NCBI GenBank assembly: GCA_002280515.1
Contig: NCEA01000013.1
Span: 14,789 to 69,168, forward strand
Reading direction: 5' to 3'
Length of the DNA stretch: 54,380 nt
Source: Rhodobacterales bacterium 32-67-9
Lineage (GTDB): Bacteria > Pseudomonadota > Alphaproteobacteria > Rhodobacterales > Rhodobacteraceae
A model generated the notes under the pieces. That model searched no databases. It worked only from the letters and a program-made list of their open reading frames with translations, and had not been told where the DNA came from. The position numbers and the translations under genes were made by a program. Positions 28,645 through 54,380 of the stretch are shown one piece after another (within the stretch, counting starts at the first letter, position 1; each line of letters begins with the position of its first letter).

Positions 28645-29364
28645 ATGACCCGGCACATGCTTCCGGGCGAACCGCCCGTCGAGATCACCTTGCGCCGCTC
28701 GGCTCGGGCGCGGCGGTTCTCGCTGCGCGTCTCGCGGCTGGATGGCCGGGTGACGCTGTCGATGCCGGCGCGGGCGCGCGAAGCGGAGGCGCTGAGCTTC
28801 GCCGAGGCCAAGGCCGGTTGGCTGCGCGCGGTCCTGAGCGGCACCGCGGTGCGGCAGGGCGTGGATTTCGGGGCGACGATTGCCTTCGAGGGCCAGGCGC
28901 TGGTCGTCACGCCGGCGCCGGTGCGTGCGGTCCGGATATCAGGGGCTGCGCTCCTCGTGCCGGCGGACCCCGAGCGGCTGGGCGCCCGGGTCTCGGCCTT
29001 CCTGAAGCTTGCCGCCCGGCAGCGGTTGCAGGCGGCCTGCGAGACCCACGCGACTGCGCTCGGCCGCCGCTTCACCCGGATCACGCTCCGCGATACCCGC
29101 TCGCGCTGGGGGTCGTGCACGGCGGACGGCGGGCTGATGTTCTCGTGGCGACTGATCATGGCGCCACCGGAGGTTCTCGACTACGTCGCCGCGCACGAGG
29201 TCGCGCATCTGGCCGAGATGAACCACTCGCCGGCGTTCTGGGCCATCGTGGCGCGGCTGATGCCGGGGTATCAGCGGCACCGGCGCTGGCTGCGCGAACA
29301 TGGCGGCGGGTTGCACCGGCTGGACTTCGCCGCCGAACCGATTGGCGCGCTTGCGGGAGATTGA
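28645..29364 (+). CDS. DUF45/YgjP-like zinc metallopeptidase
   Basis: A 239-aa protein of the M48-related YgjP/WLM group. It has the zinc motif HEVAHLAEMNHSPAFW (HExxH near residues 189-193, with the third ligand in NHS) and the preceding SRWGSC typical of DUF45. It probably cleaves or binds protein in the cytosol; no signal peptide is seen. GGAAGGAGGT before the ATG at 28645 is an excellent ribosome site and excludes the longer frame from 28459. The TGA stop lies inside TTGACG, a -35-like box for the following gntR gene. Confidence 0.88.
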   Translation: MTRHMLPGEPPVEITLRRSARARRFSLRVSRLDGRVTLSMPARAREAEALSFAEAKAGWLRAVLSGTAVRQGVDFGATIAFEGQALVVTPAPVRAVRISGAALLVPADPERLGARVSAFLKLAARQRLQAACETHATALGRRFTRITLRDTRSRWGSCTADGGLMFSWRLIMAPPEVLDYVAAHEVAHLAEMNHSPAFWAIVARLMPGYQRHRRWLREHGGGLHRLDFAAEPIGALAGD

Positions 29365-29378
29365 CGGCGGCGGTGATT

Positions 29379-29390
29379 TTGTGATCACAT
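29379..29390. promoter_or_regulatory. Candidate GntR operator in front of gntR
   Basis: TTGTGATCACAT contains the perfect palindrome TGTGATCACA (29380-29389), ending 7 bp before the gntR ATG. It matches 11 of 12 bases of TTGTGATCACAA, the sequence found in tandem before sucC and sdhC. With TTGACG (29361-29366) as -35, the operator covers the -10 position, which suits autorepression. No Shine-Dalgarno sequence lies between operator and ATG. Confidence 0.6.
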
Positions 29391-29396
29391 TCCGCC

Positions 29397-30047
29397 ATGC
29401 TGAGCCAGACCCGCCCTTCCGACCCCGGAATCGCGGCGCATGACCGGATCTACCGGTCGTTGCGCCAGCAGATCATGCATGGTGAATTGGCACCGGGACA
29501 GGCGCTGACCCTGCGGGGGCTGGCCAAGAGCTACGGCGTGTCGATGACGCCGGCGCGCGAGGCGTTGCGGCGGCTGGCGGCCGAAGGGGCGCTGACACTC
29601 TCGTCCTCGGGCCGGGTGGCGACGCCCGACCTCTCGAACGACCGGATCGAGGAATTGGCGACGCTCCGGGCGCTGATCGAGACGGAGCTAGCCAGCCGGG
29701 CGCTGCCGCGGGCGCATCTGGCGCTGATCGAACGCTTGCAGGCGATCAACATGGCCAATGCCGAGGCGGCGGTGAAGCGCGACGCGGTGGCGTATATCCG
29801 CACCAACCTAGAGTTCCACCGCACACTTTACCTGCGCGCCCAGGCGCCGGCGATGCTGGCGATGGCCGAGACGGTTTGGCTGCAACTCGGCCCGACGATG
29901 CGGGCGCTTTACGGCCGCCTCTCGCGGTCAGAGCCGCCGCAGCATCACCGCATGATCATCGCCGCGCTGAAGGCCGGCGACGAGCCCGCGCTGCGGCTCG
30001 CGGTGCGCACCGACGTGACGCAGGGCCTGCGCCACATCGCCGGCTGA
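29397..30047 (+). CDS. GntR family regulator with FCD domain
   Basis: A 216-aa transcription factor with an N-terminal winged helix (YRSLRQQIMHGELAPGQALT, then SYGVSMTPAREALRRLAAEG; residues about 18-65) and an all-alpha FCD ligand domain, whose likely metal ligands include His residues in FHRTLY and HHRM. FCD regulators sense organic acids. The gene is convergent with lpd (11-bp gap) at the end of the suc operon, and a matching palindrome lies before it, before sucC and before sdhC, so a TCA-cycle regulator is the best guess. No ribosome site is visible before the ATG, so the mRNA may be leaderless. Confidence 0.9.
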   Translation: MLSQTRPSDPGIAAHDRIYRSLRQQIMHGELAPGQALTLRGLAKSYGVSMTPAREALRRLAAEGALTLSSSGRVATPDLSNDRIEELATLRALIETELASRALPRAHLALIERLQAINMANAEAAVKRDAVAYIRTNLEFHRTLYLRAQAPAMLAMAETVWLQLGPTMRALYGRLSRSEPPQHHRMIIAALKAGDEPALRLAVRTDVTQGLRHIAG

Positions 30048-30058
30048 CGCGGCCCCGG

Positions 30059-31447
30059 TCAGGCGTGGATCGGCCCGTCGCCGCAGGCGAGCGCCGCCTC
30101 GCGCACCGCTTCCGAGAAGGTCGGGTGGGCGTGGCATGTCAGCGCGATGTCCTCGGCCGAGGCCCCGAATTCCATACCGACGCAGATCTCGTGGATCAGC
30201 TCGCCCGCCGAGGGGCCGATGATATGGGCGCCGAGGATGCGGTCGGTCTCCTTGTCGGCGAGGAGCTTGACGAAACCCTCGCCCTGGAACACCGCCTTGG
30301 CCCGGCCGTTGCCCATGAAGGCGAACTTGCCGATCTTGTAGGCGCGGCCCTCTTCCTTCAACTGCTCCTCGGTCTTGCCGACCGAGGCGACTTCGGGCGT
30401 GGTGTAGATCACGCCGGGGATCACGCCGTAGTTCACATGGCCCACCTTGCCGGCGAGGATTTCGGCCAGCGCCATGCCCTCGTCCTCGGCCTTGTGGGCC
30501 AGCATCGGGCCGGTGATCGCGTCGCCGATCGCGTAGATGCCCTTGATATTCGTGGCGAAATGGCCGTCGGTCTTGACCTGCCCGCGCTTTTCCATCGCGA
30601 TGCCGAGCGCCTCGAGCCCGAGACCCTCGGTATAGGGTTTGCGCCCGGTCGCGACGAGGACGACCTCCGCCTCGAGGCTCGCCTCGCTGTCGTCCTTGCG
30701 CAGTTTGTAGCTGACCGTCGCCTTGCCGCGCTTGACCTCGGCGCCCTGCACGGCGGCGCCAAGAATGAACTTGAGGCCCTGGCGGGAGAGGATCCGCTGG
30801 AAGGTCTTGGCGGTGTCGCCGTCCATGCCGGGGGTGATCGCGTCGAGATACTCGACCACCGTCACCGCGGTTCCGAGCCGGGCATAGACCGATCCCATCT
30901 CGAGCCCAATGACGCCGGCGCCGATCACTACCATCGACTTCGGCACCTTGGGCAGCGTCAGTGCCCCGGTCGAGGTGACGATGGTCTTCTCGTCCACCGT
31001 CACGCCAGGCAGGCTGGACGGTTCGGAGCCTGTGGCGATGACGATGTTCTTCGCGGAATGGACCTCGTCCCCGACCTTGACCTTGCCGGGTTCCGGGATC
31101 GTGCCCCAGCCCTTCAGCCAGGTGATCTTGTTCTTCTTGAAGAGGAACTCGATGCCCTTGGTGTTCTGGCCGATGACATCGTCCTTGTAGGCGAGCATCG
31201 CTGGCCAGTCGACGGAAGGGGATTTGCCCTTCAGCCCCATCTTGGCGAAGTTGTGCTCGGCCTCATGCAGCATGTGGCTCGCGTGGAGAAGCGCCTTCGA
31301 GGGGATGCAGCCGACGTTGAGGCAGGTGCCGCCAAGCGTATCGCGGCCCTCGACCACGGCGGTCTTGAGCCCGAGCTGGGCGCAGCGGATGGCAGAGACA
31401 TAGCCGCCGGGACCGGCACCGATGAGGATCACGTCGAACTCAGCCAT
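30059..31447 (-). CDS. lpd: Dihydrolipoyl dehydrogenase (E3)
   Basis: A 462-aa flavoprotein that reoxidises dihydrolipoamide of the 2-oxoglutarate dehydrogenase complex, and possibly of other lipoyl systems, with NAD+. The FAD fold GAGPGGY (residues 8-14), the redox disulfide [13 protein letters not shown] (about 36-48), the NAD fold [11 protein letters not shown] and the C-terminal HAHPTFSE (His-Glu pair) are all present. AAAGGAG sets the start at 31447. It is the last gene of the sucC-to-lpd block, after a MAPEG gene and a GC hairpin repeat. Confidence 0.96.
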
Positions 31448-31519
31448 TGGGTACTCCTTTGATGGTCGGTGTCTGCCATGTGTCGGCAAACCGGATGGCT
31501 CGGGGTGGCTGGCGTCGGA

Positions 31520-32112: not shown

Positions 32113-33650
<1,538 letters not shown>

Positions 33651-33654
<4 letters not shown>

Positions 33655-36620
33655 CGGGCGGGTTCTCCAAGTGTCAGGGCTTCGTTCACAAGCGCCTCCT
33701 GCTCGGCCTTGTGACGCGAGGCGAGGCCGGTCGCGGGCGAGGCGGAGGCGGCGCGGCCGACATAGCGCGGCCGCTGGGTCTTGGCGCCGATCCGGCCGAG
33801 CACCCATTCGAGGTTGGGTTCGACAAAGGTCCAGCCACCCTGGTTTTTCGGCTCTTCCTGGCACCAGATGACCTCGGCCCCCTTGAAGCGCTCCAGTTCC
33901 TGCACCAGTGACTGGGCAGGGAACGGATAGAACTGTTCGAGCCTGAGGAGATAGACATCGTCGATGCCGCGCGCGTCGCGTTCGGCCAGAAGGTCGAAAT
34001 AGACCTTTCCCGACGAGATCACCACGCGCTTGATCTTCTTGTCGGCCACCAGCCTGGTGTCGGAATGGCCCTTCTGCGCGTCGTCCCAGAGGACGCGGTG
34101 GAAGGTCGATCCGGTGGTGAAATCCTCAGCGTCCGAAACGCACATCGGGTGACGCAGAAGCGATTTCGGCGTCATCAGGATCAGCGGCTTGCGGAACGAA
34201 CGGTGCACCTGCCGGCGCAGGATGTGGAAGTAGTTCGCCGGCGTCGAGCAGTTGGCGACGATCCAGTTGTCCTGCGCGCATTGCTGGAGGAAGCGTTCCA
34301 GCCGGCCGGACGAGTGTTCGGGCCCCTGGCCTTCGAAGCCGTGCGGCAGGAGACAGACGAGGCCCGACATGCGCAGCCACTTGGATTCACCCGAGGAGAT
34401 GAACTGGTCGAACATGATCTGGGCGCCGTTGGCGAAGTCACCGAACTGGGCTTCCCACATGACGAGCGCGTTCGGTTCGGCCAGCGAATAGCCGTATTCG
34501 AAGCCGAGCACCGCGTATTCGGAGAGCATCGAGTCGATGACCTCATAGCGTGCCTGACCGGCCCTGACGTGGTTCAGCGGATAGTAGCGTTCCTCGGTCA
34601 TCTGGTCGATGAAGGCGGAATGGCGCTGCGAGAAGGTGCCACGGGTGCAGTCCTGCCCGGCGAGCCGGACCGGGAAGCCCTCGGTCACGAGGCTGCCAAA
34701 GGCGAGCGCCTCGGCGGTGGCCCAGTCGAAGCCCTGTCCCGACTTGAACATCTGCGCCTTGGTCTCGAGTTGACGCGCGACGGTCTTGTGGATGTCGAAG
34801 CCTTCGGGCGCGCGGGTCAGTGCGGTGCCGATCTCGGTCATCGTCTTCTTGGTGATCGCGGTCTTGCCGGGCGTGTATTCGCCATCCTCGCGGCTCATGT
34901 GCGACCAGCGTCCGTCGAGCCAGTCGGCCTTGTTGGGCTTGTAGGTCTTGCCGGTCTCGAATTCCTCGTTCAGATGGGCCTGGAAGGCGGCCTTCATATC
35001 CTCGATCTCGCCTTCCGGGATCAGGCCGTCGCGGACGAGGCGCTCGGTGTAAAGCTGGAGCGTGGTCTTGTGGGTTTTGATGGTCTTGTACATCGCCGGG
35101 TTGGTGAACATCGGCTCGTCGCCTTCGTTGTGACCGAAGCGGCGGTAGCAGAACATGTCGATGACCACGTCCTTGTGGAACTTCTGCCGGAACTCGGTCG
35201 CGACCTTGGCGGCGTGGACCACGGCCTCCGGATCGTCACCGTTGACGTGGAAGATCGGCGCCTCGACCATCAGCGCGATATCGGTCGGATAGGGCGAGGA
35301 GCGCGAGAAATGTGGCGCGGTGGTGAAACCGATCTGGTTGTTGACGACGATGTGCATCGTCCCGCCCGTGCGATGGCCGACGAGGCCGGAAAGGCCGAAG
35401 CATTCGGCCACTACGCCCTGGCCGGCAAAGGCGGCATCGCCGTGCAGAAGGATCGGAAGCACCATGGTGCGGTCGGTGTCGTTCAACTGTGCCTGCTTGG
35501 CGCGCACCTTGCCGAGCACCACCGGGTTCACCGCCTCGAGGTGCGAGGGATTGGCGGTCAGGCTGAGGTGCACGGTATTGCCGTCGAAGGTCCGGTCGGA
35601 CGAGGCGCCGAGGTGGTATTTCACGTCACCCGAACCATCCACGTCCTCGGGCTTGAAGCTGCCGCCCTGGAATTCATTGAAGATCGCCCGGTAGGGCTTG
35701 GCCATCACGTTGGCGAGCACGCTGAGCCGGCCGCGATGCGGCATGCCGATCACGATGTCGCGCACGCCGAGGTTGCCACCGCGCTTGACGATCTGTTCCA
35801 TCGCCGGGATCAGCGCTTCGCCGCCGTCAAGGCCGAAGCGCTTGGTGCCCATGTATTTCACATGCAGGAACTTCTCGAACCCCTCGGCCTCCACGAGCTT
35901 GTTGAGGATCGCCTTGCGGCCCTCGCGGGTGAACTGGATTTCCTTGCCGAAGCCTTCGATCCGCTCCTTCAGCCAGCCGGCCTGTTCGGGATCGGAGATG
36001 TGCATGTATTGAAGCGCGAAGGTGCCGCAATAGGTCCGCTTCACGATGTCGAGGATCTGCCGCATCGACGCGTGTTCGAGGCCGAGCACCTTGTCGATGA
36101 AGATCGGCCGGTCCATGTCGGCCTCGGAAAAACCGTAGGAACGGGGATCAAGCTCCGGATGCGGCTTTTCGGCATTCATGCCGAGCGGGTCGAGGTCGGC
36201 GACGAGGTGGCCGCGGATCCGGTAGGCGCGAATGATCATCAGCGCGCGGATACTGTCGAGGACCGCCCGCTTGATCTGGTCGTCGGTGACGGCGACGCCC
36301 GCCTCGGCAGCCTTCGCCTTGATCTTGTCGCCTGCCCCGTTCATCTCCTTCGCCGCGATCGGCCATTCGCCGGTCAGCGCGGCAGTCAGGTCGTCGGCAG
36401 GCACCGGCGGCCAGTCGGGCCGTTCCCACGAGGCGCCCTGCGCTTCGCGGCGGACATCCGTCTCGGTATCGCCGAGCGAGCGGAAGAAGGCGGCCCAGGT
36501 CGCATCCACCGCGGCCGGGTCATTGGCGAACCGCGCGTAAAGCTGTTCGACATATTCGGCATTCGCGCCTTGCAGGAAGGAAGAGGCGTGGAACTGGTCG
36601 TTGGGGGATTGCTCTGTCAT
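33651..36620 (-). CDS. sucA: 2-oxoglutarate dehydrogenase E1
   Basis: A 989-aa thiamine-diphosphate decarboxylase, first component of the 2-oxoglutarate dehydrogenase complex. The N-terminal E2-binding segment ([17 protein letters not shown]), the SRYG-like active-site region [12 protein letters not shown], the TPP motif [11 protein letters not shown] ... NNQIGFTT and the transketolase-like half ([14 protein letters not shown]) are all in place. Full length for the family. It is coupled to sucB by ATGA. A frame of more than 900 codons on the other strand is a shadow. Confidence 0.97.
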
Positions 36621-37477: not shown

Positions 37478-38359
37478 TCAGCCGATCGCCTTCAATACCG
37501 CCTCGCCGAGCGTTGCCGGGCTGTCGGCGACGACGATGCCGGCGCGCTTCATCGCTTCGATCTTCGATTCCGCATCGCCCTTGCCACCGGCGACGATGGC
37601 GCCGGCATGGCCCATGCGGCGGCCCTTCGGCGCGGTGCGACCGGCGATGAAGCCTGCGACCGGCTTCCAGCGGCCCTTCTTCTTCTGCGCGGCGAGGAAT
37701 TCCGCCGCCTCTTCCTCGGCGCTGCCGCCAATCTCGCCGATCATGATGATCGACTGCGTTTCGGGATCGTCGAGGAACATGGCGAGGACGTCGATATGCT
37801 CGGTGCCCTTGATCGGGTCGCCGCCGATGCCGACGGCCGAGGACTGGCCGAGGCCGAGGTCGGTCGTCTGCTTCACCGCCTCGTAGGTCAGCGTGCCCGA
37901 GCGCGAGACGACGCCGCAGGAGCCCTTCATGTGGATATGGCCAGGCATGATGCCGATCTTGCATTCGCCGGGGGTGATGACACCGGGGCAGTTCGGCCCG
38001 ACGAGGCGGCTTTTCGTGCCTTCGATGGCGCGCTTGACCTTCATCATGTCGAGAACCGGGATGCCCTCGGTGATGCAGACGATCAGCTCCATTTCAGCGT
38101 CGATCGCCTCGAGGATGCTGTCGGCCGCGAAGGGCGGCGGCACATAGATGACCGACGCATTCGCCTCGGTCGCGCGCTTCGCCTCGTGGACCGAGTTGAA
38201 GACCGGCAGGCCGATATGGGTCTGCCCGCCCTTTCCCGGCGTCACGCCGCCGACCATCTTGGTGCCGTAGGCGATGGCCTGTTCGGTGTGGAACGTGCCT
38301 TGGCTGCCGGTGAGACCCTGGCAGATGACGCGGGTGTTGGTGTTGACGAGTACGGCCAT
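37478..38359 (-). CDS. sucD: Succinate-CoA ligase alpha subunit
   Basis: A 293-aa subunit of succinyl-CoA synthetase. The N-terminal CoA-binding domain shows [15 protein letters not shown] (residues 15-29). The phosphohistidine is in [18 protein letters not shown] near residue 245-262, and [13 protein letters not shown] supports the assignment. Length is normal. It is separated from sucC by about 620 bp holding an orphan gene and a gene remnant, an unusual split since sucC and sucD are generally adjacent. Confidence 0.96.
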
Positions 38360-38979: not shown

Positions 38980-40173
38980 CTACCCCTTCACCGCCTTCAC
39001 GATCTTCTGCGCGCCGTCCTTCAGGTCGTCCGCCGCAATCACGTCGAGGCCGGAATTCTGGATGATCTCCTTGCCCTTCTCGACATTGGTGCCTTCGAGC
39101 CGCACCACCAGCGGCACCTGAAGGCCCACTTCCTTCACCGCGGCGATGATGCCCTCGGCGATGATGTCGCAGCGCATGATGCCGCCGAAGATGTTGACGA
39201 GGATGCCTTTGACGTTGGGGTCGGAGGTGATGATCTTGAAGGCTTCCGTCACCTTCTCTTTCGTCGCCCCGCCGCCGACGTCGAGGAAGTTGGCAGGTTC
39301 CGCCCCGTAAAGCTTGATGATGTCCATCGTCGCCATGGCAAGGCCGGCGCCGTTGACCATGCAGCCGATCTCGCCGTCGAGCGCGATGTAGTTGAGGTCG
39401 AACTTCGAGGCGGCAAGCTCCTTCGGGTCTTCCTCGGTCTCGTCGCGCAGCGCGGCGATGTCGGGGTGGCGGTAGATCGCGTTGCCGTCGAAGCCCATCT
39501 TGGCGTCGAGGCATTTGAGGTTGCCGTCGGTGCCGACGATCAGGGGGTTGATCTCAAGCATCTCCATGTCCTTCTCGACGAAGAGCTTGTAGAGCGTCTT
39601 GATCAGGCCGACGCATTGCTTGACCTGATTGCCTTCGAGGCCAAGCGCGAAGGCGATGCGGCGGCCGTGGAAATCGGAAAGGCCCGAGGCCGGATCGACG
39701 GAGAAGGAGAGGATTTTTTCCGGCCGATTCGCCGCGACTTCCTCGATATCCATGCCGCCTTCGGTCGAGCAGACGAAGGAGATGCGGCTGGTCTGGCGGT
39801 CGACCAGCACCGCAAGGTAAAGCTCGCGCGCGATGTCGGAACCGTCCTCGATATAGATGCGGTTGACCTGCTTGCCGGCGGGGCCGGTCTGGTGCGTGAC
39901 GAGGGTGCGGCCCAGCATCTGCTTGGCGAGCGACGCAGCCTCCTCGACCGACTTCGCCAGCCGGACGCCGCCCTTTTCGCCGGCCTCGGCCTCCTTGAAG
40001 TGGCCCTTGCCGCGGCCGCCGGCATGGATCTGCGCCTTCACGACCCAGAGCGGGCCGTCCATCTCGCCCGCCGCAGTCTTGGCCTCTTCGGCCCTGAGGA
40101 CGGGGCGGCCGTCGGAAACCGGAGCGCCATAGCTGCGCAGGAGGGCCTTGGCCTGGTATTCATGGATGTTCAT
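38980..40173 (-). CDS. sucC: Succinate-CoA ligase beta subunit
   Basis: A 397-aa ADP/GDP-forming beta subunit with an ATP-grasp domain. The N-terminus [19 protein letters not shown] is diagnostic; [12 protein letters not shown] (residues 45-56) and the C-terminal [11 protein letters not shown] and [12 protein letters not shown] are family marks. GGGGA precedes the start at 40173; a longer frame to 40458 is rejected. A tandem GntR-type operator lies 108-140 bp upstream, so this is the first gene of its own transcription unit, separate from mdh. Confidence 0.96.
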
Positions 40174-40280
40174 CGCTTGTCCCCGTGTCCGTTCGGTTTG
40201 GAGCAGGTGATGGCACAAGCGGAGCGGGCAGCGAAATGATAATTGCGCGAAATGCACAGGATCGGCAGAAAACCGTAAAT

Positions 40281-40313
40281 TTGTGATCACGGCAAGATTT
40301 TGTGTGATCACAA
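40281..40313 (-). promoter_or_regulatory. Tandem GntR-type operator upstream of sucC
   Basis: Two palindromes: TTGTGATCACGG (40281-40292) and GTGTGATCACAA (40302-40313). Their centres (40286.5 and 40307.5) are exactly 21 bp apart, two turns of helix. Read toward sucC, the sequence aligns with the module before sdhC (46289-46321): the distal site is followed by an A/T-rich spacer and then CCGTGATCACAAA in both. The same palindrome precedes the gntR gene next to lpd. Confidence 0.65.
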
Positions 40314-43004: not shown

Positions 43005-43883
43005 ATGCCCCTGGCTGACGACCGCCCGCGCCCGTATCGTTCGGTGCTCTACATCCCCGGCTCGAAGGAGCGGGCGCTGGAAAAGGCGCAAGGACTGGAC
43101 TGTGACGCGATCATCTTCGATCTCGAGGATGCCGTCGCGGCCGAGGAGAAGGCCGCCGCCCGCGCCTTGCTGACGCGGGTGCTGGCCGAGGCCGATTTCG
43201 GCGGCCGTGCGCGCATCGTCCGGGCGAACGGGCTGGATACGGCATGGGGACGCGACGACGTGCTGGCATTCGCCAAGGCGATCGCCGCCGGGGCGAAGGT
43301 CGACGCGATCCTGATCCCCAAGGTCTCGTCGCCGGCCGATCTCGACGCGGTGGCGGCCCTGATCGCCGGAGTTCCGCTCTGGGCGATGATGGAGACGGCG
43401 GCGGGCATGCTGAACGCCGCCGCCATTGCCGCGCATCCCCGGCTTCAGGGCATGGTCATGGGCACCAACGATCTCGCCAAGGAACTCGGGAGCCGGTTCC
43501 GGCCCGACCGCTTGCCGATGCAGGCGGGGCTTGGTCTGTGCCTGCTGGCGGCGAAGGCCCATGGCCGGATCATCGTCGACGGTGTCTACAACGCCTTCAA
43601 GGACGACGAAGGGCTTCGTGCCGAATGCGCGCAAGGCCGTGACATGGGCTTTGACGGCAAGACCCTGATCCACCCGGCCCAGCTTGCGGTCGCCAACGAG
43701 GCCTTCGCCCCCTCGGAGGCCGAGATCGACCTCGCCCGCCGCCAGATCGCCGCCTTCGATGACGCCGCGCGGGCCGGGCAGGGTGTTGCCGTCGTCGACG
43801 GAAAGATCGTCGAGAACCTCCATGTCGTTACGGCAAGGCAGATCCTCGCGCGCGCGGAGGCTATTGCGGAGCGCGCGAATTAG
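43005..43883 (+). CDS. mcl2: HpcH/HpaI (CitE-like) malyl-CoA thioesterase/lyase
   Basis: A 292-aa HpcH/HpaI aldolase-family protein. Visible are RSVLYIPGSKERALEKA (residues 12-28), FDLEDAV with the Mg ligand acids, and the C-terminal GFDGKTLIHPAQ. In Rhodobacter sphaeroides a protein of this size, Mcl2, hydrolyses (3S)-malyl-CoA in acetate assimilation. The nearby mch gene supports membership of the ethylmalonyl-CoA pathway. CitE-type lyase or malyl-CoA lyase activity remains possible, as the families are close. GAGGAG precedes the ATG. Confidence 0.8.
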   Translation: MPLADDRPRPYRSVLYIPGSKERALEKAQGLDCDAIIFDLEDAVAAEEKAAARALLTRVLAEADFGGRARIVRANGLDTAWGRDDVLAFAKAIAAGAKVDAILIPKVSSPADLDAVAALIAGVPLWAMMETAAGMLNAAAIAAHPRLQGMVMGTNDLAKELGSRFRPDRLPMQAGLGLCLLAAKAHGRIIVDGVYNAFKDDEGLRAECAQGRDMGFDGKTLIHPAQLAVANEAFAPSEAEIDLARRQIAAFDDAARAGQGVAVVDGKIVENLHVVTARQILARAEAIAERAN

Positions 43884-43922
43884 GGAAAGTCTGGCGCGTC
43901 GTTAAAAGTCAGGAGGTTTGAT

Positions 43923-44480
43923 ATGCAGGTGATGGTCCTCGGGCTGGTGCTTTGGATCGTGTCGCATCTGTTCAAGCGGGTGCTGCCGGGGCCGCGCGCG
44001 AAACTGGGCGAACTGCCGGGAAAGATGGTGGTCACGGTGCTGTCTCTGGCCGCTGTCGTGCTGATGGTGATCGGCTACCGGCGGGCGGAGATCGAGCCGG
44101 TCTATACGCCGCTGCCGGGAATGGGGCATCTGACCGACCTCCTGATGCTGATCGCGGTCTTTTTGCTCGGCGTGCCGCATACAAAGGGGCTGGTGAAGGC
44201 GCGGCTCCGTCATCCGATGCTGCTCGGCGTCATCCTCTGGGCTTTCGCGCACCTTCTGGTCAATGGCGACCTCGCCTCCATCGTCCTCTTCGGCGGGCTT
44301 GGCGTCTGGGCCGTCGTCTCGATCCTTCTCATCAATGCGCAGGAGCGGTGGGAGCGGCCGGCGCCGGGGGGCCTCCGCAGCGACGCGATCGGCGTGGTGA
44401 TCGCGCTGGTTCTCTATGGGCTGATCGCCGGCGTCCATATCTGGCTTGGCCACAACCCGTTCCTCGGGACCTACGGCTAG
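43923..44480 (+). CDS. NnrU family membrane protein
   Basis: A 185-aa protein with five to six membrane helices and the NnrU hallmarks SHLFKR, GVPHTKGLVKARLRHP and the C-terminal HIWLGHNPFLG. NnrU was first linked to nitrite/nitric-oxide metabolism, but a related protein (15-cis-zeta-carotene isomerase) shows that the fold can bind heme; the histidines here would allow that. AGGAGGT lies upstream. It is placed between two ethylmalonyl-CoA pathway genes and no denitrification gene is in the window, so its role here is open. Confidence 0.88.
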   Translation: MQVMVLGLVLWIVSHLFKRVLPGPRAKLGELPGKMVVTVLSLAAVVLMVIGYRRAEIEPVYTPLPGMGHLTDLLMLIAVFLLGVPHTKGLVKARLRHPMLLGVILWAFAHLLVNGDLASIVLFGGLGVWAVVSILLINAQERWERPAPGGLRSDAIGVVIALVLYGLIAGVHIWLGHNPFLGTYG

Positions 44481-44508
44481 GGCCGCACGATGTGCTGAAA
44501 GGACCAAG

Positions 44509-45540
44509 ATGAAGACCAATCCGGGCCGTTTCTTCGAGGATTACCGGCTGGGCGACGTGATTGCCCACGCCGTGCCCCGTACGCTTTCGGGGGGGGAACG
44601 TGCGCTCTATCACGCGCTCTATCCCGCCCGCCATGCGCTTTGTTCTTCCGACGCCTTTGCCCGCGCCTGCGGCTTGCCCGCCGCGCCGATGGACGACCTG
44701 ATTGCCTTCCACACGGTCTTCGGCAAGACCGTGCCCGACATCTCGCTCAATGCCATCGCCAATCTCGGCTATGCCGAGGGGCGCTGGCACCGGCCGGTCT
44801 GGGCGGGCGACACGTTGCGGTCGGAAAGCCAGGTCATCGGGTTGAAGGAAAACTCCAACGGCACGTCGGGTGTCGTCTGGGTCCGCACGCGCGGCCTGAA
44901 CCAGAGGGACGAGGTCGTTCTGGAATATGTACGCTGGGTCATGGTCCGCAAGCGGGACGTATCGCTACCAGCGCCGAAGACGGTTGTGCCGGATCTGGTC
45001 GGAGCGGTGGCCGCCACCGACCTGATCGTGCCGGAAGGGCTCGATTTCAGCCGCTACGACTTCACGCTCGCCGGAGAGCCGCACCGCTGGGGCGACTACG
45101 CCGTTGGAGAGACGATCGACCATGTCGACGGGGTGACGGTCGAGGAGGCGGAGCACATGCTCGCCACGCGCCTCTGGCAGAATACCGCCAAGGTGCATTT
45201 CGACGCCACCAACCGCGAGGACGGGCGGCGGCTGATCTATGGTGGCCACGTCATCTCGCTCGCCCGCGCGCTCAGCTTCAACGGATTGGCCAATGCGCAG
45301 TTGATCGTGGCGCTGAACGCCGGTGCTCATGCCAACCCCTGCTTCTCGGGCGATACGGTGCGGGCCTGGTCGGAAGTGCTCGACAAGGCCGAGACCACGG
45401 CACCTGGCGTCGGCGCGATCCGGCTGAGGCTGGCGGCGGTGAAACACGGCGCCGAGCCCTTCGCGCTGAAGGGCGCAGACGGGAAATACCTGCCCGATGT
45501 GCTTCTGGACCTCGATTACTGGGCGCTGATGCCTTTGTGA
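44509..45540 (+). CDS. mch: Mesaconyl-CoA hydratase (MaoC family)
   Basis: A 343-aa double-hotdog MaoC-type hydratase. The N-terminal half has GRFFEDYRLGDVIAHAVPRT and the second half the hydratase region WGDYAVGETIDHVDGVTVEEAEHM followed by WQNTAKVHFD. The length matches, to my recollection, Rhodobacter Mch, which interconverts beta-methylmalyl-CoA and mesaconyl-CoA in the ethylmalonyl-CoA pathway. AAAGGAC sets the start at 44509. The neighbouring mcl2-like gene agrees with the pathway. Confidence 0.88.
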   Translation: MKTNPGRFFEDYRLGDVIAHAVPRTLSGGERALYHALYPARHALCSSDAFARACGLPAAPMDDLIAFHTVFGKTVPDISLNAIANLGYAEGRWHRPVWAGDTLRSESQVIGLKENSNGTSGVVWVRTRGLNQRDEVVLEYVRWVMVRKRDVSLPAPKTVVPDLVGAVAATDLIVPEGLDFSRYDFTLAGEPHRWGDYAVGETIDHVDGVTVEEAEHMLATRLWQNTAKVHFDATNREDGRRLIYGGHVISLARALSFNGLANAQLIVALNAGAHANPCFSGDTVRAWSEVLDKAETTAPGVGAIRLRLAAVKHGAEPFALKGADGKYLPDVLLDLDYWALMPL

Positions 45541-46263: not shown

Positions 46264-46288
46264 CCGGGGCGGTCCGGGTGGCGGGGAT

Positions 46289-46321
46289 TTGCGATCACAA
46301 AAATTTTCCCCGTGATCACAA
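46289..46321 (+). promoter_or_regulatory. Tandem GntR-type operator upstream of sdhC
   Basis: Two palindromes: TTGCGATCACAA (46289-46300) and CCGTGATCACAA (46310-46321), centres 46294.5 and 46315.5, 21 bp apart, 141 bp before the sdhC ATG. Spacing, order and flanks (a T-run before the distal site, an A/T-rich spacer, AAATT after the proximal one) match the module before sucC in the direction of transcription. The AT-rich stretch after it may hold the promoter. Confidence 0.65.
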
Positions 46322-46461
46322 AATTGAAGTTTATCGCTAACGACGGCGGATTCTACAGATTTTGGCCACTGGTAGCGTGACATGAGCGAGATTTGCGCTA
46401 TTGAGGGTGGCGAAAGCGCCTCGCCGCCCTCCGGCCGGGCGCGGCAAGAGAGGGACCGAAC

Positions 46462-46851
46462 ATGGCTGACGTGAACCGGGGCAAGCGCCCGTTATCGCCC
46501 TTTATGATCGGGCCGTACTACCGGCCGCAGTTGACCTCCATCACCTCGATCCTGACGCGGATCACCGGCAATGCGCTGATCGTGGCGGCGTTCCTGATTG
46601 TCTGGTGGCTTCTGGCCGCGTCGACCAGCGCGGAGTATTTCGCCGTCGCCGACGGCGTTGTGCGGTCGTGGTTCGGCAAGCTGATCTTCACCGGCTCGAT
46701 CTGGGCGGTTTGGTATCACTTCCTCGCCGGCCTGCGGCACCTCTACTTCGACAGCGGGCGCGGGCTCGACATTCCGACGGCCGAGAAGCTGGGCTGGGGG
46801 ATCATCTTCGGGTCGGTTGTTCTGACCCTCTTCACCATCACAATTCTCTGA
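46462..46851 (+). CDS. sdhC: Succinate dehydrogenase cytochrome b556 subunit
   Basis: A 129-aa membrane anchor with three helices. RPLSPFM at the N-terminus, SILTRITGNAL (residues 29-39) and the heme-ligand motif HFLAGLRHLYFD (near 86-97) identify SdhC. In E. coli the equivalent of SILT is SILH; the histidine is a threonine here, while the quinone-site Ser and Arg remain. GAGAGGGA precedes the ATG. First gene of the sdh operon. Confidence 0.94.
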   Translation: MADVNRGKRPLSPFMIGPYYRPQLTSITSILTRITGNALIVAAFLIVWWLLAASTSAEYFAVADGVVRSWFGKLIFTGSIWAVWYHFLAGLRHLYFDSGRGLDIPTAEKLGWGIIFGSVVLTLFTITIL

Positions 46852-46863
46852 GAGGGGGCGGGC

Positions 46864-47235
46864 ATGAGATATCTGACCGACCGCAAGCGCGCCGAGGGCC
46901 TTGGCTCCGCCAAGTCCGGAACCGAGCATTTCTGGCACATGCAGGTGAGTGCCGTGGGCCTCGCCATTCTGGTGCCGGTCTTCATTCTGACCTTCGGCCG
47001 CATCGTCGGCGCGCCCTACGAGGATGTCGTCGCCTATTACGGCCGGCCGTTCCCCGCCATCGTCGCGGGTCTGACGCTGGTCGTCGCCATGACCCATTTC
47101 AAGAACGGCGCGCAGGTGATGATCGAGGATTACGCCCACGGATTCACCCGCAAGGCGCTGATCATCAGCACCGTCTGCCTGTCCTACGCGCTGATCGCCA
47201 CCGGGCTTTACGCGTTGATCCGGCTCGCGCTTTGA
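46864..47235 (+). CDS. sdhD: Succinate dehydrogenase hydrophobic anchor subunit
   Basis: A 123-aa three-helix anchor protein. GLGSAKSGTEHFWHMQVSAVGL at the N-terminus and HFKNGAQVMIEDY (about 78-90) are the SdhD signatures, the latter containing the quinone-site tyrosine/aspartate region. GAGGGGGC precedes the ATG. With SdhC it binds heme b and ubiquinone. Confidence 0.94.
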   Translation: MRYLTDRKRAEGLGSAKSGTEHFWHMQVSAVGLAILVPVFILTFGRIVGAPYEDVVAYYGRPFPAIVAGLTLVVAMTHFKNGAQVMIEDYAHGFTRKALIISTVCLSYALIATGLYALIRLAL

Positions 47236-47247
47236 AGGACTGACACC

Positions 47248-49050
47248 ATGACCGCTTATCCATATGAGATCCACGAATACGATGTGGTGGTCGTCGGTGC
47301 CGGCGGCGCCGGCCTGCGCGCCACGCTCGGCATGGCCGAACAGGGGTTGCGCACCGCCTGCGTGACCAAGGTCTTCCCGACCCGCAGCCACACCGTCGCG
47401 GCGCAGGGCGGCATCGCCGCGTCGCTCTCGAACATGGGCCCCGACCACTGGCAGTGGCACATGTACGACACCGTCAAGGGCTCCGACTGGCTCGGCGATA
47501 CCGACGCGATGGAATACCTCGCCCGCGAGGCGCCGAAGGCGGTCTACGAGCTGGAGCATTACGGCGTGCCCTTCAGCCGCACCGAGGAGGGCATGATCTA
47601 TCAGCGCCCGTTCGGCGGCCATACGACCGAGTTCGGCGAAGGCCCCCCGGTGCAGCGCACCTGTGCCGCCGCCGACCGCACCGGCCACGCGATCCTGCAC
47701 ACGCTCTACGGCCAGTCGCTGAAGCACAATGCCGAGTTCTACATCGAGTATTTCGCCATCGACCTGATCATGACCGACGGCGCCTGCACCGGCGTCGTGG
47801 CGTGGAAGCTCGATGACGGCACGATCCATGTTTTCAACGCCAAGATGGTGGTGCTGGCGACCGGCGGCTACGGCCGGGCCTTCTTCAGCGCGACAGGCGC
47901 CCATACCTGTACCGGCGACGGCGGCGGCATGGTGGCGCGCGCCGGGCTGCCGCTTCAGGACATGGAGTTCGTGCAGTTCCACCCGACCGGGGTCTACGGC
48001 GCCGGGGTGCTGATCACCGAGGGCGCACGCGGCGAGGGTGGATATCTCACCAATTCCGAGGGCGAGCGCTTCATGGAGCGTTACGCGCCGACCTACAAGG
48101 ATCTGGCGAGCCGCGACGTGGTGTCGCGCTGCATGACGATCGAGATCCGCGAAGGTCGTGGCGTCGGCCCGAACAAGGACCACATCCACCTGCATCTCAA
48201 CCACCTGCCGCCCGAGACGCTGGCCCTGCGCCTGCCTGGCATCTCTGAAAGCGCCCGCATCTTCGCCGGTGTCGACCTGACCAAGGAACCGATCCCGGTG
48301 CTGCCGACCGTGCATTACAACATGGGCGGCATTCCGACCAACTATAAGGGCGAGGTGCTGAACCCGACCAAGGCCAACCCGGATGCGATCGTTCCGGGCC
48401 TGATGGCGGTGGGCGAGGCCGGCTGCGCATCGGTTCACGGCGCCAACCGGCTCGGTTCAAACTCGCTGATCGACCTCGTGGTCTTCGGCCGGGCAGCGGC
48501 CATCCGCGCCGGAGAGATCGTCGATCCGAAGGAGCGCAACCAGCCGGTGAACACGGTGTCGGTCGATGCCGCACTCGACCGGTTCGACAGGCTCCGCTAC
48601 GCCAAGGGCAGCATCTCCACCGCCGATCTCAGGCTTGAGATGCAAAAGACCATGCAGTCCGACGCCGCCGTCTTCCGCACCGACAAGACGCTGGCCGAAG
48701 GGGTCGAGAAGATGAAGGCCGTGGCGGCGAAGATGGACGACCTCAAGGTCACCGACCGCAGCCTCGTCTGGAACTCCGACCTGATGGAGACGCTGGAACT
48801 GACCAACCTCATGCCGAACGCGCTTGCCACCATCGTCGCCGCCGAGGCGCGCAAGGAAAGCCGCGGCGCCCATGCGCACGAGGATTACCCGAACCGTGAC
48901 GACAAGAACTGGCGGGTGCATTCGCTGGCGACGGTCGATGGCAACAAGGTGACGTTGACCACCCGGCCGGTGCATCTCGACCCCCTGACGCCGCAGGCGG
49001 AGGGCGGGATCGACCTGAAGAAGATCGCGCCGAAGGCAAGGGTCTACTGA
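47248..49050 (+). CDS. sdhA: Succinate dehydrogenase flavoprotein subunit
   Basis: A 600-aa catalytic subunit with covalently bound FAD. The FAD fold [11 protein letters not shown] (residues 14-24), the FAD-linking histidine in [11 protein letters not shown] (near 49-59), the substrate region [21 protein letters not shown] with the catalytic arginine, and [11 protein letters not shown] are all present. It ends in TGATG, overlapping the first lipoprotein gene by one base rather than running into sdhB. Confidence 0.97.
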
Positions 49051-50262: not shown

Positions 50263-51039
50263 ATGGTCCAGTTCACGCTTCCCAAGAATTCGAAGATCCG
50301 CGTCGGCAAGACCTGGCCGAAACCCGAGGGCAGGAATGTCCGCAAGTTCCAGATCTACCGCTGGAACCCCGACGACGGCGAAAACCCGCGGGTCGACACC
50401 TATTTCATCGACATGGACCAGTGCGGCCCGATGGTTCTGGATGCGCTGATCAAGATCAAGAACGAGATCGACCCGACGCTGACCTTCCGCCGGTCGTGCC
50501 GCGAGGGCATCTGCGGCTCCTGCGCGATGAACATCGACGGGATCAACACGCTGGCCTGCATCTACGGGTTGGATGAAATCAAGGGCGACGTGAAGATCTA
50601 TCCGCTGCCGCACATGCCGGTGGTGAAGGACCTGATCCCCGACCTCACGCATTTCTACGCCCAGCACGCGAGCATCATGCCGTGGCTTGAGACCAAGACG
50701 AACCGCCCCGCGAAGGAATGGCGCCAGTCGATCGAGGATCGCAGCAAGCTCGACGGGCTTTACGAATGCGTCATGTGCGCCTCGTGCTCCACCTCCTGCC
50801 CGAGCTACTGGTGGAACGGTGACCGCTACCTTGGCCCGGCCGCGCTTCTGCATGCCTACCGCTGGATCATCGACAGCCGCGACGAGGCGACGGGCGAGCG
50901 GCTGGACCAGCTTGAGGACCCGTTCAAGCTGTATCGCTGCCATACGATCATGAACTGCGCGAAGACCTGTCCGAAGGGGCTGAACCCGGCGAAGGCGATC
51001 GCCGAGATCAAGAAGATGATGGTCGAGCGGGTGGTCTAG
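50263..51039 (+). CDS. sdhB: Succinate dehydrogenase iron-sulfur subunit
   Basis: A 258-aa iron-sulfur protein carrying electrons from FAD to quinone. The 2Fe-2S cluster motif [15 protein letters not shown] is near residues 79-93; the 4Fe-4S motif [12 protein letters not shown] and the 3Fe-4S motif [14 protein letters not shown] lie in the C-terminal half. AAAAGGGGAT precedes the ATG. It closes the sdh operon, directly followed by an intrinsic terminator. Confidence 0.97.

Positions 51040-53262: not shown

Positions 53263-54380
<1,118 letters not shown>

Follow-up and report, generated by a model that had tools for sequence, protein, structure and literature searches.

Are the succinate dehydrogenase genes and the genes for the 2-oxoglutarate to succinate steps under one regulator in Rhodobacterales bacterium 32-67-9, and if so, in which direction does it act? 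The question is raised by a window of 54,380 nucleotides (the whole stretch of DNA analysed here, part of a draft assembly of 3.72 Mb in 60 contigs), in which mdh, sucC, sucD, sucA, sucB and lpd follow one another on the minus strand and sdhC, sdhD, sdhA and sdhB on the plus strand. A preliminary description of this DNA had noted the same tandem module before sdhC and before sucC and had attributed the likeness to a shared regulator. The features on which the analysis is built are collected in Table 1. Genes for a CitE-like lyase and a MaoC-like hydratase lie at 43005-45540, between the suc and sdh operons.

Table 1. Operators, promoter elements and genes in the window
Feature	Sequence	Position	Strand	Remarks
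Distal operator, sdh module	GCGATCAC (1 mismatch)	46291-46298	.	
Proximal operator, sdh module	GTGATCAC	46312-46319	.	21 bp centre-to-centre to distal
Distal operator, suc module	GTGATCAC	40304-40311	.	
Proximal operator, suc module	GTGATCAC	40283-40290	.	21 bp centre-to-centre to distal
CceR-like element	GTTTATCGCTAAC	46329-46341	.	resembles predicted RSP_1663 motif [A/G/T]GTT N6-8 AAC[A/C/T]; at sdh, not suc
Single operator, akgR	GTGATCAC (within TTTGTGATCACA)	29381-29388	.	directly before akgR
Predicted -35, akgR	TTGACG	29361-29366	+	20 bp before operator
Predicted -35, sdhC	GTGACA	46377-46382	+	+61 bp from proximal operator centre; conserved GTGAC
Predicted -10, sdhC	TATTGA	46399-46404	+	spacer 16; predicted transcription start near 46411
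Predicted extended -10, suc	TGTGCCATCAC	40207-40217	-	conserved element; predicted start near 40200
GntR/FCD regulator, AkgR by motif and targets		29397-30047	+	216 aa; behind lpd, convergent
lpd		30059-31489	-	
sucB		32113-33651	-	
sucA (2-oxoglutarate dehydrogenase E1)		33651-36620	-	ORF, read from sequence
sucD		37478-38359	-	
sucC		38980-40173	-	
sdhC		46462-46851	+	TIGR02970
sdhD		46864-47235	+	ORF; by position and size only
sdhA		47248-49050	+	ORF, read from sequence
sdhB		50263-51039	+	

Operator pairs upstream of sdhC and sucC

The 21-bp centre spacing reported for the two pairs was borne out at both places, and alignment of the sdh module with the reverse complement of the suc module showed identity in 29 of 35 ungapped columns (46288-46322). 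Both half-modules described before sdhC were present, the distal one being one mismatch away from the operator sequence. The order of elements held at both operons, in that TTT and a distal site were followed by an A/T-rich spacer and CCGTGATCACAAA, although the T-run of the earlier account amounted to TTT only. The argument drawn from a common orientation to transcription proved weak. Because the module is almost palindromic, that is, nearly its own reverse complement, "same orientation" carries little weight; the information content of 50 modules (first sample, see below) was 44.38 bits as oriented versus 44.02 bits with random flips (sd 0.16, maximum 44.67). The ATG of sdhC lies 142 bp past the end of the proximal sdh operator.

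The sites are not a product of chance. Single sites with at most one mismatch numbered 44 in the window, a good part of them within coding sequence, versus 19.9 in shuffles, with 44 reached in 0 of 100 shuffles. Longer forms of the site were found at few places in the 3.72-Mb assembly: TGTGATCACA occurred only twice, once at akgR and once in the distal operator of suc, and a search for TTTGTGATCACA with at most one mismatch returned nine rows, made up of the sites of akgR, suc and sdh plus two coding-like places. The latter two, each with one mismatch, were rejected as targets on reading, C5:31908 being inside a long repeat-rich reading frame and C11:19341 apparently within the start of a plsY-like gene. 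Judged by the extended motif, the regulon in this genome is simple, with one regulator, two target promoters and the regulator itself. A TTGATCAC-N13-GTGATCAC arrangement at C11:172541 has a GC-rich spacer.

No Rfam family matched at gathering scores as an RNA element at the sdh or suc promoter. Elsewhere, in the presumed urease region, 5_ureB_sRNA matched at 105.7 bits (53451-53735, minus strand), which may be a mere reflection of conserved coding sequence.

Conservation of the pairs

Pairs were searched with the pattern GTGATCAC N3-33 GTGATCAC, by which centre spacings of 11-41 bp were permitted. Of the 292 genomes of the order, 287 contained an exact pair, usually two of them; none was present in G110, G141, G227, G231 and G232; the reversed-pattern control, as read from the table of 292 genomes, was nonzero only in G097. 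Class-wide, the pair occurred in 29 of 385 genomes, which included all 5 members of the same family and 24 of the other 380. Beside those 24, neither sdhC nor sucC was detected by tblastn with the window proteins (first place in each genome, up to 1.5 kb per side). At L117:992-1020 and L139:1501-1532, in other families of the class, GTGATCAC pairs (21 and 24 bp) have AkgR-like genes (28-38% identity) as neighbours, and neither suc nor sdh genes were seen in the vicinity.

The spacing was read from two samples, in both of which only pairs with sdhC or sucC close behind were kept. The first consisted of the listed places of 34 genomes, including the window's own with its one-mismatch sdh pair, and the second of 36 of 40 other genomes (G005, G011, G015 and G088 were left out). 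In the first sample, sdhC pairs were spaced by 21 bp (24 cases), 20 bp (6) or 19 bp (1) and sucC pairs by 21 bp (28) or 20 bp (4); the corresponding counts in the second were 27 at 21 bp and 6 at 20 bp for sdhC, and 36 and 1 for sucC. Pooling gave 125 deduplicated promoters from 70 genomes, of which 108 had a spacing of 21 bp, 16 of 20 bp and 1 of 19 bp (sdhC, n=61: 49, 11 and 1; sucC, n=64: 59 at 21 bp and 5 at 20 bp). Near-identical promoters and the 130-bp row of triple array L304 are excluded from these pooled counts.

Places without sdhC or sucC close behind were dropped from the first sample (L020, L021, L038, L057, L064, L065, L072 and L084, with L064 located before sucA and L072 before akgR) and from the second (L253, L257 and L273). 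Further listed places outside the counts are G261:C1:2970615, both G157 places, G057:C12:36654, G265:C57:99915, G058:C28, G058:C31, G046:C1:373011 and G046:C7:579640. Among the fetched pairs, those spaced otherwise were closely followed by neither gene (the akgR promoter of G147, at 13 bp, is an example), and three at 20-21 bp (L064, L065 and L084) were not directly before sdhC or sucC. At L065 (G272:C4:456158), an additional pair spaced by 21 bp lies roughly 470 bp away from a second gene resembling sucC. Triple operator arrays with steps of 21 + 21 bp were found before sucC at L217 (a Gemmobacter nectariphilus MAG), L230 (Pseudotabrizicola sediminis), L241 (one site with one mismatch) and L304, and a third site after another 21 bp was also present in G046.

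The likeness of the two modules could also be a functionless relic of an old promoter duplication, as the 29 identical columns in this genome would allow. However, the spacing, which the search left free, is kept within 19-21 bp even though the bases of spacer and flanks differ among genomes, and exact pairs persist in 287 of the 292 genomes, even if the fixed site bases are uninformative, being required by the search. We consider such a relic extremely improbable. The conservation suggests that nearly all sampled genomes of the order control suc and sdh jointly, and do so with a strict geometry.

AkgR as the candidate regulator

The regulator encoded behind lpd matched PF00392 (GntR winged helix) and PF07729 (FCD) above gathering scores. 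It passed no curated cut-off of the named GntR equivalogs in NCBIfam, the best being NF008504 with 85.9 bits versus 225. Its nearest named relatives, from the Rhodobacteraceae, were proteins of Defluviimonas sediminis (89% identity) and Albidovulum inexpectatum (86%). A protein of Cereibacter ovatus was 81% identical; the regulator of the window is a putative orthologue of RSP_0981 of R. sphaeroides 2.4.1, which we take to be AkgR. The AlphaFold model had a mean pLDDT of 87.2, and its closest solved fold was that of E. coli McbR/YncC (4p9f; TM-score 0.85, 25% identity). Residues N137, H141, H184 and D206, presumably the FCD metal site, were invariant across 27 orthologues, and the name AkgR, as we understand it, hints at 2-oxoglutarate as the signal. 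Further traits of the AkgR family were present here, namely GTGATCAC at akgR, suc and sdh (motif as given in the excerpt of PMC6365646), and for the targets predicted in the excerpt of PMC4344238 (sucCD, sucAB-lpd and sdh) sites were found before sucC and sdhC both here and in relatives.

An AkgR orthologue at E <= 1e-70, as read from the table, was present in 287 of 292 genomes. At 1e-40, none was found in G023, G141 and G232, and G110 and G227, which belong to one genus, had only matches of 47-50% identity. AkgR and the pairs occurred together in 286 genomes and were both missing from 4, with AkgR only in G231 and pairs only in G023 (Fisher p 8e-8, kinship ignored). G231 carries near-matches before sucC (1 mismatch) and sdhC (2 mismatches). 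In G023 both modules are intact (L018 and L047) and the best AkgR match has 29% identity, so that this genome is either a true exception or an assembly gap.

The proposal of a regulator common to sdh and suc was thus supported, the pair being mostly lost together with the GntR/FCD orthologue. A shared regulator is the best explanation because the same pair precedes the same two operons, pair and orthologue are mostly lost together, and in this genome the akgR promoter carries the site as well. Whether that regulator is AkgR itself has a competing answer, in which a different GntR protein, such as the paralogue G000:C39:585-1196 (40% identity), binds the pairs, or both proteins do. This answer could draw on the AkgR-like proteins beside GTGATCAC pairs in other families (L117 and L139), on the same palindrome having been proposed for a 32%-identical regulator (PMC6365646, excerpt), and on G023, where pairs are present without AkgR. 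The paralogue (L170), however, sits on another contig and has no exact GTGATCAC within the 4 kb examined, with GTGATCAG 192 bp upstream; moreover, many module-bearing genomes have one match only at the 1e-40 cut-off, whereas the AkgR orthologue itself tracks the modules. Binding by another GntR protein is therefore quite unlikely in our judgement.

Promoter geometry

The sdhC modules are followed by a conserved GTGAC(A/T) and then, at 16 bp, by a TATTAA-like -10. GTGAC was in range in 56 of 61 sdhC promoters, with none in the remaining five, and its distance to the proximal centre was 41 (one promoter), 51 (two), 52 (one), 54 (one), 61-64 (42), 73-75 (eight) or 84 bp (one). The 14 occurrences outside 60-65 bp were on average 0.70 bp off whole turns of 10.6 bp versus 2.65 bp expected (Rayleigh R 0.86 at 10.7 bp, p 3e-5, kinship ignored). 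The period is poorly fixed, as R was 0.84-0.86 from 10.5 to 11 bp, 0.70 at 10 bp and 0.67 at 12 bp, and p values over all 56 occurrences hold little information on it because the main cluster dominates. The distance from the sdhC module to the ATG showed no helical period (R 0.11).

At sucC, a TGTGCCATCA-like extended -10 scored in 53 of 64 promoters, mainly at 68-70 bp (28) and 59 bp (8), with R 0.67. This element is less specific, since on average 30.6 of 64 shuffled promoters also passed its score; their mean R was 0.16 and the maximum 0.40. The controls were not clean either: the pentamer GTGCC gave p 0.04 (7 places), and the sucC module-to-ATG distance gave R 0.26 (p 0.013). The first sample gave rise to the geometric scheme and the second reproduced it, although related genomes are not independent.

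CGTGAC and TGTGCCATCA were obtained by a Gibbs motif search limited to the region. Unlimited Gibbs searches were discarded, having settled on a T-rich tract rather than on the promoter. Many promoters of both operons have this TTTTCTGC-like tract 13-15 bp past the proximal operator. A candidate sdhC promoter directly adjoining the module, with TTGAAG at 46324-46329 as -35, was dropped by eye on the promoter sequences.

The distances of the sdhC -35 from the module are set apart from one another by whole helical turns, a pattern suggestive of RNA polymerase contact and so of activation, and pairs that lie clear of the promoter and tolerate whole-turn shifts fit an activator touching RNA polymerase. 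Most known FadR-type regulators are repressors, and the site in the akgR promoter looks repressive; on this ground AkgR might be a repressor of both operons that acts from the upstream pair, either through looping or through exclusion of an activator such as NtrC. Such repression is unlikely, in that the predicted -35 of sdh follows the proximal centre at 41-84 bp (61 in the window) and the predicted -10 of suc mostly at 59-70 bp, with no overlap of the core promoter at either operon, while whole-turn spacing to a weak promoter suits activation and the excerpt of PMC6365646 names AkgR a transcriptional activator.

The site in the akgR promoter

Exact GTGATCAC was present upstream of akgR in 24 of 30 loci (best AkgR matches from 38 genomes). 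TTGA begins 18 bp ahead of the site in 20 of these 24, and the ATG is 15-18 bp past the first base of the exact site. From these two distances, the site would occupy the gap between -35 and -10, and akgR transcription would start near the ATG. Among 79 named akgR loci with sufficient sequence, the 60 bp upstream contained the site exactly in 38 and with at most one mismatch in 43; in the other 36, no site within one mismatch was found there. A single site placed inside the akgR promoter suggests autorepression, which is not general because these 36 loci lack the site in the 60 bp upstream.

A second element at sdh

Beyond the module, the sdh promoter of the window contains GTT N7 AAC: positions 46328-46341 fit the predicted motif [A/G/T]GTT N6-8 AAC[A/C/T] except for the G after AAC. 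The LacI-type regulator RSP_1663, which we assume to be CceR, might accordingly exert the main shared control, with the GTGATCAC pair secondary. RSP_1663 is indeed predicted for sdh and mdh in the excerpt of PMC4344238, and the window's sdh element differs from its motif in the last base only. However, the half-site (CGCTAAC, GTTAGCG or CGATAAC) was found in 12 of 28 sdhC promoters versus 2 of 28 sucC promoters (0.8 and 0.7 expected), and it therefore fails to link the two operons. Full CceR-like palindromes were not enriched in the 28 sdhC and 28 sucC promoters, GTT N6-8 AAC being near expectation with 3 of 28 at each (2.3 and 2.1 expected). Control of both operons mainly through RSP_1663 is very unlikely. 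The half-sites of the sdhC promoters are situated between the module and the -35. Their presence is in line with the RSP_1663 (LacI) control of sdh predicted in the same excerpt, and, being specific to sdh, they make the operons seem common in one control and apparently different in another.

Proposed mechanism

Taken from sequence comparison, our reading is that the 21-bp pairs are very probably AkgR operators, from which AkgR would help polymerase at weak promoters and so co-activate sucCD-sucAB-lpd and sdhCDAB. Two AkgR dimers would sit two helical turns apart on one DNA face, and their binding would probably be cooperative; counted from the predicted start, they would be about 96 and 117 bp upstream at sdh and 86 and 107 bp upstream at suc. 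From there AkgR would assist RNA polymerase at the weak promoters, so that both operons would be turned on together, and it would repress its own gene through the one site that the akgR promoter contains.

A more detailed version has, in our estimate, an even chance of being right. It describes a phase-locked activation cassette preserved across the order, in which dimers would be set at two-turn steps and act on RNA polymerase about 75-140 bp ahead of the start, the promoter could slide during evolution by whole turns only and akgR would have a self-brake. Equally balanced is its further detail that two, sometimes three, dimers would be stacked and that the akgR site, lying between -35 and -10, would reverse the sign of the effect. 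The natural series from 41 to 84 bp offers a handle on how a FadR-type activator contacts RNA polymerase.

Comparison with known systems

The nearest fold to the AkgR model belongs to E. coli McbR/YncC, the targets and function of which are presumably unlike those of AkgR. AkgR bears an FCD domain although GTGATCAC departs from the site rule of the FadR subfamily. As given in the excerpt of PMC4494728, FadR-type sites follow NyGTM-N0-1-KACNy, with GT and AC usually 2-3 nt apart; in GTGATCAC they are 4 nt apart, a point against the AkgR reading. The same excerpt calls double and triple sites quite common in the FadR subfamily and reads constant divergon spacing as cooperative; its double sites lie between divergent operons, whereas each pair here serves one operon. 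PS417_07240 of Pseudomonas simiae (PMC6365646, excerpt) is AkgR-like, with 32% identity, and was proposed to use GTGATCAC; it differs in belonging to a deoxyribose catabolism cluster and in having one palindrome described. PdhR of Shewanellaceae (PMC5343134, excerpt) is likewise a GntR protein with a predicted regulon that contains sdhCDAB and other citric acid cycle genes, but it belongs to another orthologous group and another class and responds to pyruvate.

The closest system is the AkgR/RSP_0981 regulon of R. sphaeroides. RSP_0981 (GntR) was predicted to control sucCD, sucAB-lpd and sdh (PMC4344238, excerpt), and AkgR was described as a transcriptional activator whose sites include GTGATCAC (PMC6365646, excerpt). 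Both systems have a GntR-type regulator, the same targets and GTGATCAC, with no difference found in those excerpts. The partial texts on AkgR contained neither tandem 21-bp pairs nor whole-turn promoter spacing, and the listings of literature searches gave no paper on either for this regulator; those of PMC4344238 and PMC6365646 mentioned no site in the akgR promoter; the primary AkgR paper may have all of these. That succinyl-CoA formation and succinate oxidation are controlled together had thus been predicted earlier for one species, and the idea of a shared regulator is already in print, whereas its strict geometry across the order may be newly documented here.
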